Of a stretch of 64,000 nucleotides of DNA, positions 5,976-49,284 are shown one piece after another. The notes beneath the pieces were generated by a model, which saw nothing but the letters and a program-made list of their open reading frames with translations, searched no databases and was not told the origin of the DNA. Every line of letters starts with the position of its first letter. The stretch's first letter is position 1. This stretch comes from Candidatus Afararchaeum irisae (GTDB lineage Archaea; Halobacteriota; Halobacteria; Halobacteriales; Afararchaeaceae). The position numbers and the translations under genes were made by a program. Where the stretch lies: positions 1-64,000 of the forward strand of contig JAXIOF010000039.1 in the NCBI GenBank assembly GCA_034190545.1, read 5' to 3'.

Positions 5976-6935
5976 TCAGTCGTCGTCCTCGCCGTCGGAC
6001 TTCTTCCTGTAGTCGACGTAGTCAGTTCCCCGGAGCTCCTCAAGTAGGTTGATTGCGGCGTCGGTGCCTTCGCCGACCGAGACAGTGACCTGTCTGTTCC
6101 CTCCGGTGACATCGCCCGCGGCATAGAGCCTGTCGACTGTCGTGCTCTGGTCGGGGTTGACCTGAAGGTAGGGTCCTTCTGTAGGTATTCCGAGCGTCTC
6201 GGCGAGGTCAGTTCCCCCCGCCGCCCCGAGAGCGACGAAGAGACCATCGAGTTCGAGTGTCTCTCCCGACTCGAAGACGACACCTTCGAGGCTTTCGTCG
6301 CCTTCGACCCTGTCGATCTTGTCATTGATCACCTCGACACTATTCTCCGAGAGTCTCCGCTCAAGCTCGTCATCTGCGTCGAACTCGTTTCCGTTCGTGA
6401 GTACGCGGACATCGTCGGTGTAATCGAGAAGCATCAGTGCCTCCTTAGCCGCGTAGTTCTCCGATCCCACGACTCCAACGGGCCGGTCGCGGTAGAAGTA
6501 GGCGTCACACTCGACACAGTACGAGACTCCCTGTCCCTCATAGTCGTCAACACCTCGTATAGCGGGCGACTTGTAGGAGGCTCCGGTCGCGAGTATTAGA
6601 CCGCGCGACTCGTACTCGTTGTCGGAGGTCTCGACTACGAAGTTATAGTCGTCGGAGTCGTCTTTTTCTTTCTGAGAGACAGAGACGTGGACAACCTCCT
6701 CGTGTCGTATCTCAGCACCGTACTTCGTGGCGTGTTCCTCGCCGAGTGAGACTATCTTCTCGCCGCTGATCCCATCAGGGAATCCATAGAAGTTCTCCAT
6801 CCAGTCGACACCGCGTGTGGTTCCATCGCCCTTATCGATCACGAGAGTCTCCTGTTCAGCTCGCGCGGTATAGACTGCGGCACTCAGACCCGCGGGTCCG
6901 CCTCCGATGATTATTACGTCTTTTGTCTCGGTCAT
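5976..6935 (-). CDS. trxB: Thioredoxin-disulfide reductase (FAD/NAD(P)-dependent)
   Basis: A 319-aa low-molecular-weight flavoprotein of the TrxB type. It has an FAD Rossmann motif GGGPAGLSAA (11-20), a CVEC redox pair followed by Asp near residue 140, an NAD(P)-binding region at VGVVGSENYAAKEAL, and the C-terminal FAD site YAAGDVTGG. The redox centre reads CVEC, not the common CATC, but both cysteines are present. A more distant FAD-dependent reductase using ferredoxin or another donor cannot be excluded. It reads toward nfi. Confidence 0.85.
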   Translation of the reverse strand: MTETKDVIIIGGGPAGLSAAVYTARAEQETLVIDKGDGTTRGVDWMENFYGFPDGISGEKIVSLGEEHATKYGAEIRHEEVVHVSVSQKEKDDSDDYNFVVETSDNEYESRGLILATGASYKSPAIRGVDDYEGQGVSYCVECDAYFYRDRPVGVVGSENYAAKEALMLLDYTDDVRVLTNGNEFDADDELERRLSENSVEVINDKIDRVEGDESLEGVVFESGETLELDGLFVALGAAGGTDLAETLGIPTEGPYLQVNPDQSTTVDRLYAAGDVTGGNRQVTVSVGEGTDAAINLLEELRGTDYVDYRKKSDGEDDD

Positions 6936-7016
6936 TCCGAGTAAGTATAAGACGTGTCCGAGAAAAGTGTACCGCCGATATAAGACTAGACGGGAGAGAT
7001 GTCGAGAGTTACCCGA

Positions 7017-37685: not shown

Positions 37686-37763
37686 GCCGGTGCTTAGACC
37701 CGACACGACTTAACTTTTTACAGGCTAAGTCCCCTTCCTCAAGGAGTGTTGCGAATCACGTAT

Positions 37764-38136
37764 GAAAATCTCCGATTTTCAACACATCGCAGTCTGCTTT
37801 AGTAGACAAGAAGCGTTAACGAATCGCGTAGCGATTCGTTCGCACATCAGAACGCTTCGCGTTCTGAGGACGTTCAGAAATCAAAGATTTCCGAGCCATC
37901 AAACTCGTAGAGTTTGAGACGTTCGCTAATCTCCGATTAGCGAGCCAACGAGAGCAAAGCTCTCGTAACGTTCGTGAATCTAAGATTCACGGGTCTTCAG
38001 AAATCAGAGATTTCTGTGATGCAGAAAACTCGTAGAGTTTTCTAGCACAAGCAAATCGAAGATTTGCATACGCAGTAGGGAGGGGATACAGTCACAAATT
38101 CTTTGAATTCGTGGGTAGCAAGATCAGAGATCTTGC
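37764..38136. repeat. Array of triloop palindromes (thirteen hairpins)
   Basis: Thirteen short palindromes in 373 bp, almost all perfect stems of 6-10 bp around a 3-base centre. Start-end positions: 37764-37780, 37818-37840, 37847-37867, 37877-37891, 37899-37917, 37924-37942, 37948-37966, 37973-37991, 37998-38016, 38023-38043, 38051-38067, 38093-38113 (one mismatch) and 38118-38136. Many share the core AATC-NNN-GATT; others are AACTC-GTA-GAGTT, GAGAGC-AAA-GCTCTC and GAACGC-TTC-GCGTTC. Loops differ, stems differ, but the architecture is constant. There is no sustained reading frame. Confidence 0.9.
37870..37973. repeat. Tandem 49-bp two-hairpin units bounded by ACGTTC
   Basis: ACGTTC occurs at 37870, 37919 and 37968, exactly 49 bp apart. 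Each 43-bp interior is hairpin - CGAGCCA - hairpin. The stem sequences of the two units differ while the linker GAGCCA and boundaries are kept. This is the clearest copy of the element also seen at 38285 and 49063. Confidence 0.85.
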
Positions 38137-38140
38137 GACA

Positions 38141-38278
38141 GCCGTAAGCTATTTGCGTACTTGGTACTATTTCTAAGCATTGAGTACACAGGGGCACGGT
38201 GGAATTTACGCCTGTGGACACAGAACCTCTGTGGGCTTCACGGCTTATAAGTTCGTGGTGGAAGCAGGAACCTCCTAG
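38141..38278 (+). pseudogene. Decayed TnpB 3' end (IS200/IS605-type)
   Basis: Short peptides typical of haloarchaeal TnpB C-termini can be read in shifting frames: AVSYLR at 38141-38158, RGTVEFTPVDTEPL at 38190-38231, and KFVVEAGTS then stop at 38249-38278. Intervening stops and frame changes show it is broken. The catalytic RuvC-like part is absent. It lies between the hairpin array and an omega-RNA-like right end, which supports the reading. The call rests on recalled family patterns, not on an alignment. Confidence 0.5.
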
Positions 38279-38284
38279 AGGCTT

Positions 38285-38325
38285 CGCAAATCAAAGATTT
38301 GCGAGCCATCAAGCTCTGCTTGATG
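38285..38325. repeat. Two-hairpin palindromic element copy
   Basis: CGCAAATC-AAA-GATTTGCG (38285-38303), then linker GAGCCA overlapping CATCAAGC-TCT-GCTTGATG (38307-38325). Same architecture and linker as the 49-bp units. It lies just after the stop of the TnpB remnant and is partly flanked by CTTC at both sides. Confidence 0.85.
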
Positions 38326-38390
38326 ACTTCCAGAGAAGACCGCTCTGAGGTGAGGCCCAAAGAAGACGGCATCATGGTCAAATCGCTCTG

Positions 38391-38448
38391 GAAGCCCCAT
38401 CCTTAAACTCGCACATTAAGTGCGAGTGGAGGGTGGGGAGGAAGTCAC
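38391..38448 (+). ncRNA. Omega-RNA-like right end of an IS200/IS605 element
   Basis: GAAGCCCCATCC, an inner stem ACTCGCAC-ATTAA-GTGCGAGT, then GGAGGGTGGGGAGGAAGTCAC. The outer arms pair as CCCCATCC with GGAGGGTGGGG. The form (gGAAGCCcc ... stem ... ggGGAGGaaGTCAC) resembles the conserved 3' end of TnpB-associated elements in haloarchaea, where the transcript is the guide-RNA scaffold. Sequence 3' of about 38448 would be the guide. With no intact TnpB here, any activity would need one in trans. Confidence 0.5.
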
Positions 38449-38471
38449 AACTACTACCTGTCCCGCCCGCC

Positions 38472-47973: not shown

Positions 47974-49284
47974 ATGAGACTAAGCTGTCTCGGGGGTGCC
48001 CGCGAGGTCGGCAGGAGTGCGTTCCTTATCGACGACCTCCTCGTTGACTACGGAATGAAGACGGGCAACCCTCCCGAGTTCCCTCTTTCACGTGCCGACC
48101 CCGAAGAGGTCGTTATATCACACGGACATCTCGACCACGTCGGCGCGCTCCCGACCCTGATGCACGACTACCCATCCGTCCACCAGACACCTCCGACACG
48201 TAACCTCTCGGAGCTACTCGCCAACGACACTCTCAAGATTGCCCAGAGATCCGGGTCGTACAGAGCACCTTTCTCACGCGAGGACGTCTCACGTCTCTCG
48301 GAGGTCTCACGTCTCCACGGTTACGGAGACCGAGAGGGGTTCGAGGCGGCGGGCTTCGACTGTGACTTCCACCACGCTGGACATATACCCGGGAGTGCCT
48401 CGGTCAGGATCGACGACGGCGAGACGAGACTCCTCTACACCGGAGACATAAACACGACACAGACACGTCTCTTAGAAGCCGCTTCGCCGCCGCCTCCTGC
48501 AGACGCCCTAATGATCGAGAGCACCTACTTTAACTACGAACACGAAGACCGCGAGAAGGTTGAGGAAGAGTTCGTGAGGTCGGTGAGGGAGACCCTCCAC
48601 CAGGGCGGCGACGTACTGATACCCGTCTTCGCGATAGGACGCACTCAGGAGATTCTGATGGTGCTCGCCGAAAACGACATACCGTGTTATGTCGACGGAA
48701 TGGGCTGTGACGTCACGACTATACTCCGCGAACATCCCGACTACGTCCGTGATCCCGAGGCTCTCAAGAGAGCGTGGAACCACGCGAGAAAGGTCGACCC
48801 ATCGAAGAGAGACCGAGTTCTCGGAAACGGTGCAGCAGTCGTCACCACGAGCGGTATGCTCACGGGCGGACCCGCTATGTACTACATAAAAGGTCTCTTC
48901 GACAACCCCGCGAACAAGATCTGTCTTACGGGCTACCAGGTCGAGGGAACCCCCGGCAGGCGTGCACTCGATTCGAGCCGCGCTGAGATCGACGGCAAGA
49001 TACTCCCGATTTCGGCACAGGTCGAGCTACACGACTTCTCCGCCCACGCCGATGGCGACGGTACGAAATCTTCCGATTTCGTTAGCCAACGAGAGCAAAG
49101 CTCTCGTGACGGTCTCAAGTCATACGTCGAGAAGGCAGTCGAGAACGGGGTCGAGGAGGTTCTGTGTGTCCACGGCGACGAAGACGACTGTGTCGCCTTC
49201 GCTGAATGGGTCCGCGAGGATATCGGGGTCGAGGCGCACGCGCCGAAGCTCGGTGAAAAGGTCGAGATAGGTAAAATACGATGA
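47974..49284 (+). CDS. Beta-CASP metallo-beta-lactamase ribonuclease
   Basis: A 436-aa MBL/beta-CASP nuclease of the CPSF2/RNase J superfamily, without KH domains. Metal motif II is SHGHLDHVGALP; HHAGHIPGSASV, YTGDINTT, the beta-CASP motifs (VFAIGRTQE; TTSGMLTGGPAMYY; HDFSAHAD) and the final CVHGD are all present. It likely acts on RNA ends. Residues about 364-380 (TKSSDFVSQREQSSRDG) interrupt the expected SAHADGDGLKSYVEK and are encoded by a palindromic insertion (see 49057-49113). All catalytic residues lie outside the insert, so activity may be kept. Confidence 0.88.
   Translation: MRLSCLGGAREVGRSAFLIDDLLVDYGMKTGNPPEFPLSRADPEEVVISHGHLDHVGALPTLMHDYPSVHQTPPTRNLSELLANDTLKIAQRSGSYRAPFSREDVSRLSEVSRLHGYGDREGFEAAGFDCDFHHAGHIPGSASVRIDDGETRLLYTGDINTTQTRLLEAASPPPPADALMIESTYFNYEHEDREKVEEEFVRSVRETLHQGGDVLIPVFAIGRTQEILMVLAENDIPCYVDGMGCDVTTILREHPDYVRDPEALKRAWNHARKVDPSKRDRVLGNGAAVVTTSGMLTGGPAMYYIKGLFDNPANKICLTGYQVEGTPGRRALDSSRAEIDGKILPISAQVELHDFSAHADGDGTKSSDFVSQREQSSRDGLKSYVEKAVENGVEEVLCVHGDEDDCVAFAEWVREDIGVEAHAPKLGEKVEIGKIR
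49057..49113. mobile_element. In-frame palindromic insertion with 6-bp direct repeat
   Basis: GACGGT at 49057-49062 and again at 49108-49113 flanks a 45-bp insert (49063-49107) made of ACGAAATC-TTCC-GATTTCGT, linker TAGCCA, and ACGAGAGC-AAA-GCTCTCGT. Insert plus one repeat is 51 bp, so the host reading frame is preserved with 17 extra codons. Bases 49084-49107 are identical to 37943-37966 in the hairpin array. The direct repeat looks like a target-site duplication. Confidence 0.85.

Follow-up and report, generated by a model that had tools for sequence, protein, structure and literature searches.

Double-hairpin modules at CG dinucleotides and the probable origin of a dense triloop-palindrome array in a haloarchaeal genome

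Introduction

The window analysed here, a stretch of 64,000 nucleotides from the genome of Candidatus Afararchaeum irisae (contig JAXIOF010000039.1), contains a run of 373 bp (37764-38136) in which palindromes with 3-base centres follow one another, each with a different stem. The initial annotation of this locus considered the landing zone of a palindromic mobile element, a set of targets for a single-strand (Y1/HUH) transposase and a structured RNA. What these palindromes are, and how so many of them came to lie side by side, is the question addressed below. From bacteria (Rickettsia and others), core genes with in-frame insertions of palindromic repeats are on record (PMC3733652).

Results

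The run holds 11 perfect triloop (3-nt) stems of at least 6 bp, whereas 500 dinucleotide shuffles gave 0.10 on average and never more than 2. Two further palindromes, CGTGAATC-TAA-GATTCACG at 37973 and AATTC-TTT-GAATT near 38098, form an imperfect hairpin or have complementary outer loop bases, and together with these the number of about thirteen palindromes first given for the array is a fair count. The mutual difference of the stems was likewise borne out, and a simple tandem repeat was rejected because the stems differ while the linkers recur. Folding the region, which had been proposed as a check, gave a very stable structure on the + strand (minimum free energy -309 kcal/mol, z = -16.9 against shuffles), and the - strand was likewise more stable than its shuffles (z = -11.4). 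A phage origin was considered and set aside, with no match in phage records and one 21-mer without an exact match in viral contigs.

As first stated, the 373 bp contain no intact gene, but they are not isolated, and sit in the left-end (LE) palindrome of a TnpB-type relic (Table 1). Arrays related to this one are found at TnpB (IS200/IS605-type) element ends, and in L002 and L020 the same left-end motif is followed by an intact tnpB and by a right end with further hairpins. The host of the array shares its subterminal palindromes with intact tnpB elements (its LE is as in L020), but no tnpB or tnpA gene or remnant was found between its ends. Because no tnpB remnant was detected there by blastx of 38086-38460 against TnpB open reading frames, the host is best called, on sequence grounds, a gene-less relic of a TnpB (IS200/IS605-type) element. 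The PATEs and IS605-type transposons of haloarchaea (PMC3119063), with their subterminal palindromes and a lost internal gene, resemble this relic, and PATEs are thus the counterpart of the host of the modules and not of the modules themselves.

Table 1. Features of the array and of its host element (window coordinates)
Feature	Position	Strand	Basis
Left-end (LE) palindrome of the TnpB/IS605-type relic	37729-38087	+	MFE fold; same LE before intact tnpB in L002/L020
LE outer stem, GTCCCCTTCCT pairing with AGGGAGGGGAT; hairpin array in its loop	37729-37739 with 38077-38087	+	MFE fold
Decayed hairpin pair TGCGAATC-ACGTA-TGAAAATCTCCGATTTTCA	37747-37786	+	Comparison with L020; 3' arm of first hairpin lost
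Module M1, type 1, 57 nt, from CG 37814-37815 to CG 37871-37872 (second CG included)	37816-37872	-	CG-bounded
Module M2, 49 nt, GCCA linker, CAGAAATC.. gcca TCAAACTC..GAGTTTGA, end GACG	37873-37921	+	CG-bounded; related module in L020
Module M3, 49 nt, GCCA linker, TCGCTAATC.. gcca ACGAGAGC.., end AACG	37922-37970	+	Sequence comparison with L020
Module block M4, 102 nt, four hairpins: outer pair CGTGAATC / GCAAATC, inner pair CAGAAATC, AGAAAACTC	37971-38072	+	Comparison with L023
Triloop hairpin GCAAGATC-AGA-GATCTTGC, downstream of LE, preceded by AATTC-TTT-GAATT	38118-38136	+	
Hairpin pair TCGCAAATC-AAA-GATTTGCGA gc CATCAAGC-TCT-GCTTGATG within the relic	38284-38325	+	
Putative right end of the relic, GGAAGCCCC .. 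GGGG .. TCAC	38395-38450	+	Resembles right end after tnpB in L003/L020

A genome-wide search for such hairpins, suggested by the initial annotation, was strongly positive, with C-closed triloop stems in excess and, by BLAST, 56 related places in the same genome (1.9-Mb, 117-contig assembly); the genome-wide counts are drawn from about 630 kb of the 1.9 Mb. BLAST matches were obtained in 21 of the 40 genomes searched, these being the own genome and relatives of the same order. In a hit-centred set of 41 regions (457 kb), triloop stems of at least 8 bp numbered 204, whereas loop sizes of 2 and of 4-8 nt gave 13-20 such stems, and 194 of the 204 were closed by C...G. The fold first described as AATC-NNN-GATT does have a common property behind it, but the C-NNN-G closing pair is the sharper rule. 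Within 454 kb of the own genome, made up of the window and 20 stretches picked so as to avoid earlier hits, the closing base was C in 36 of the 46 triloop stems of at least 8 bp (A in 2, G in 3 and T in 5). Palindromes with loops of 0 and 1 nt (stems of at least 8 bp) were also in excess in the 41 regions, with 110 and 122 against 13-20, partly because C-NNN-G loops with pairing outer bases are counted among them, which explains part of this excess only.

The hairpins are organised in pairs. The two centres of a pair are separated by 22-30 nt, CGTY-like tags mark its outer sides, and the resulting double hairpin of about 47-60 nt is here called a module. Tags stood on both outer sides in 40 of 114 adjacent hairpin pairs and only at the inner (inter-module) junction in 25. 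The main type (type 1) reads CGTCC-[YCAGAA..TTCTGR]-TGTGCGA-[ACGA..TCGT]-YAACG, in the order hairpin B, linker, hairpin A; its stems measure 8-10 bp and stand on the feet YCAGAA and ACGA, and 193 of 195 type-1 hairpins have C-G-closed 3-nt loops. Stem bases and linkers (TGTGCG in type 1, GCCA in the M2/M3 class) are conserved, and variation in the stem tops takes the form of paired changes. Another array family, whose linkers are CTTCGTG.. and ACTTTA, was seen as near-identical copies on two contigs (L035:5344-5973 and L036:5071-5700; G000:C36 and C29).

Type-1 modules were collected by a contig scan whose pattern fixed the linker and the stem feet and left the stem tops, flanks and 3' end free; it returned at least 119 stretches, and the statistics given here, on the 99 distinct modules among the matches listed, are conditioned on that pattern. 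Their hosts, again among the matches listed, were nearly all Halobacteria of many genera, and bacterial matches were without hairpins. A CG lay immediately to the left of 97 of the 99 modules, with free bases before it, and 97 ended in ACG; a CGTCC start was found in 93, a length of 57 nt in 77, and the flanks represented 61 different contexts. At the tnpB site TCAACG^CCTGTGGAG (with small variations), nine copies are empty and others are filled with 57, 60 or 114 bp, always in frame, the 114-bp fill being two modules in tandem, and the own genome has two tnpB copies of 93.2% identity whose difference at that site is exactly 57 bp. The length of tnpB-borne modules was divisible by 3 in 16 of 16 cases. 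The left ends form a similar series, which leads from an empty palindrome in L126 and L168 (GAGTAGCG^CAGTAGGG) through M1 alone in L097, L121, L160 and L166 and several modules in L107 and L020 to the array of the window. M3 is missing from the LE of L020, a near copy lying in the right end of L020 at 6803-6944, and of the M4 block L023 has the outer pair alone, its inner pair being absent.

The empty sites, the LE series and L023 would thus explain the dense array of the window by repeated and nested insertion at CG, and we think it probable that the array consists of very short, non-autonomous mobile modules piled on one another, each a head-to-head pair of triloop hairpins inserted at CG. 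According to this proposal, a module (5'-CGTCC-hairpin B-linker-hairpin A-AACG-3' in the main type) would insert at a CG dinucleotide, and because it ends in CG, the occupied site would again be a target, with tandem piling or nesting of modules in each other's linkers as the presumed result. The palindromic ends of TnpB/IS605-type elements would serve as preferred or tolerant landing places, giving rise to arrays such as the one studied here. The early suggestion of a landing zone for a palindromic mobile element comes close, as the array lies in the end of a TnpB/IS605-type element and its units appear to be separately inserted modules. Judged by these comparisons, the modules are discrete, have exact empty sites, occupy dozens of unrelated haloarchaeal sites and keep perfect stems despite paired changes in the tops; their present-day mobility is unproven.

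Two accounts would dispense with independent insertion. The modules may be old parts of IS605-type ends, not mobile alone, which spread with the IS and were shuffled by recombination between the conserved linkers. Many copies do lie at equivalent positions of tnpB elements, one flank context occurring up to 14 times among the matches listed, and module number follows TnpB number (rho 0.53); however, the 61 flank contexts among the same matches, exact empty sites at three different IS places and the inserts in MetK, beta-CASP and a DDE transposase described below argue against this account, which we consider unlikely. Alternatively, template switching at short inverted repeats could have created the hairpins de novo, with no module moving, and the perfect palindromes, free loops and paired changes would fit such hairpin-templated copying. 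Nevertheless, linkers, stem bases and outer tags are common to several families of the order, whereas de novo events would give no common module, and a length fixed at 57 nt in 77 of 99 modules (among the matches listed) speaks likewise against a de novo origin, to which we attach a very low probability.

Most type-1 copies are 57 nt long, a multiple of three, so that insertions of the proposed kind can persist in frame in genes. In the window, the gene of a beta-CASP RNase (47974-49278, + strand; Pfam domains Beta-Casp, Lactamase_B and RMMBL) carries a 51-nt double-hairpin module in frame at 49061-49111, adding 17 residues, and the AdoMet synthetase (MetK) gene at L189:5571-6818 (- strand; G000:C2:30571-31818) carries a decayed module in frame, with 18 extra residues. 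Each of these inserts was absent from 19 of 19 relatives in the alignments. A DDE-type transposase gene (L198:17731-18430, + strand; G000:C31) has a 48-nt in-frame module, which its homologue in the same genome (L022) is without. In two of the three Y1 transposase genes (IS200-type), L180:1489-1908 (- strand) and L181 (G000:C31 and C5), two hairpin pairs lie in frame in the N-terminal part and split the motif VW..CPK..YRH; L181 contains a stop codon. A scan for double hairpins in long open reading frames gave mostly transposon contexts and missed the decayed MetK and beta-CASP copies.

The beta-CASP insert is flanked by a 6-bp direct repeat, GACGGT, which could be a longer target duplication and counts against insertion at CG only. 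A target duplication longer than CG, although suggested by GACGGT...GACGGT at this gene, was set aside as the 99 type-1 modules among the matches listed do not bear it out, having free bases before the CG and a constant AACG end. An array at L024:6834-6979 (G000:C49) lies directly after what appears, by look only, to be the 3' end of a tRNA gene; GACGGA recurs at several of its junctions, and these repeats may represent a longer target duplication there.

Stem tops were perfectly paired in 85 of 90, 62 of 74 and 18 of 19 cases, against means of 40, 30 and 8 in a shuffle that ignores relatedness. Pairing of this kind could be kept by selection on RNA folding if the hairpins were a structured RNA, that is, a leader or an omega-RNA part of the TnpB element. 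The very stable fold would agree with this, as would the position of many copies in the leader or right end of tnpB elements, the regions that encode omega-RNAs (PMC12558985). If an RNA helix were under selection, however, G-U pairs should be favoured, and for stems within tnpB or close to it, read on the sense strand of that gene, the single mismatches comprised 7 of the G-U type and 14 of the A-C type among 56. Given no G-U excess, upkeep of the pairing at the DNA level is the more likely, these small numbers pointing to a process such as the recent insertion of perfect palindromes or hairpin-templated copying. Modules moreover occur within unrelated coding genes in both orientations, and no Rfam family matched in the window. 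The structured RNA entertained at the outset is thus not favoured, and we regard it as quite unlikely; under the proposal of inserted modules, the stem tops would change together through hairpin-templated copying of DNA and not through RNA selection.

Because the junctions, with two hairpins inserted 3' of CG and no long duplication, match the chemistry of IS200/IS605 elements and REPs, a Y1 (HUH) transposase acting in trans is our best guess for the mechanism of movement. As in REP/RAYT and IS200/IS605 systems, the folded single strand would be joined 3' of CG with no long target duplication. In the own genome, Y1 tnpA occurs three times, one copy having a stop codon, and OrfB/TnpB matches number 24; C-NNN-G hairpins are present at all three tnpA loci, while at the tnpA loci of other genomes a module hairpin lay within about 240 nt in 5 of 20 cases (at most 200 nt in 4). 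Among 146 genomes of the order, tnpA was present in 43 of the 52 with type-1 modules against 44 of the 94 without (p = 2e-5), and was not detected in nine genomes with 1-2 modules each. This link mostly follows TnpB load (partial rho 0.20) and loses significance when the comparison is confined to genomes having at least 5 tnpB. A fixed, REPtron-like link to tnpA appears weak in the loci and genomes compared. In view of these comparisons, the initial guess of Y1/HUH targets is plausible but unproven.

Discussion

The initial statement that no standard class applies was too strong, as the modules come close both to the bacterial CGTC-tagged REPs with the palindromic elements of Rickettsia and to the small mobile repeats found in Haloquadratum. 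CGTC-tagged REPs (Di Nocera et al. 2013, PMC3733652), among them RPE-4/RPE-6 of Rickettsia and dRS3 of Neisseria, have an unpaired CGTC (or TGTC/CCTC) end tag, an 8-9 bp stem with AT at the first two positions, a 4-5 nt loop and a CCA tail at the untagged end, and occur mainly as head-to-head dimers; a transposase is not known for the class, and the main text of that paper names no archaeal host. The modules share with them the outer CGTC tag (CGTCC at the hairpin-B end in 93 of 99 type-1 modules among the matches listed), the head-to-head dimers, similar stems (8-10 bp against 8-9 bp), clusters in some hosts, the want of a known dedicated transposase and, as with RPEs, the in-frame position inside genes (here tnpB, MetK, beta-CASP and DDE transposase). 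In contrast to the REPs, the other end of the modules is AACG, which read from the opposite strand gives CGTT as a second tag; their loops are C-G-closed triloops and not loops of 4-5 nt; they have the feet YCAGAA and ACGA in place of an AT foot, with much freer stem tops; and haloarchaeal hosts, a concentration in TnpB/IS605-type ends and exact CG empty sites are seen here. Because loop size and AT foot do not agree, the modules are taken as an archaeal variant and not as members of the CGTC REP families, and on their sequence features we file them as a new archaeal variant of the bacterial REP / Rickettsia palindromic repeat design.

The GTAG REPs, BIMEs and REPINs with RAYT, a system in which the repeats flank the Y1 transposase gene, also use paired hairpins as a non-autonomous unit, for which single-strand Y1 transposition has been proposed, but the module tag is CGTY and no fixed tie to a tnpA gene is apparent. 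The GTAG tag was not enriched on hairpin sides (7 of 480, no more than in controls), and GTAG REPs were excluded because of the tag. Mitochondrial double-hairpin or repetitive hairpin-forming elements (PMC2800124) resemble the modules as hairpin elements that are mobile units in intergenic DNA, but they belong to organelle genomes and the likeness is one of description alone.

In haloarchaea themselves, SMR-A of Haloquadratum walsbyi (PMC3119063) is similarly small and gene-less, and enters near-terminal palindromes of IS605-type elements and PATEs with no long target duplication. The modules might therefore be SMR-A small mobile repeats or direct relatives of them, in which case the mover need not be a Y1 enzyme. 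SMR-A, however, measures about 110 bp, has terminal inverted repeats and is more than 95% identical within its type, whereas the modules are highly diverse hairpin pairs of 47-60 nt, set apart from it by description, and we hold this identity to be very unlikely. Within the open-access literature, no description of such modules in haloarchaea was found.

Returning to the reading of inserted modules, a fuller form of it can be put forward as a tentative and somewhat doubtful possibility, namely that haloarchaea hold a mobile form of CGTC REP, in which double hairpins of 50-60 nt would be moved as single strands by IS200-type Y1 transposases, insert 3' of CG and restore the target at their own end, and would pile up, refresh their stems through hairpin-templated copying and come to lie in frame within genes. 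Since haloarchaea combine the same design with exact empty sites and a series of insertions, and include hosts open to genetics such as Haloferax, mobilization would become testable in them. The inserts also show a route by which essential archaeal enzymes can gain new peptide segments of about 17 residues. As a separate observation on coding sequence, an array of 14 hairpins at L030:4529-5209 (G000:C25) lies inside an open frame of 227 aa, which is a predicted frame only.
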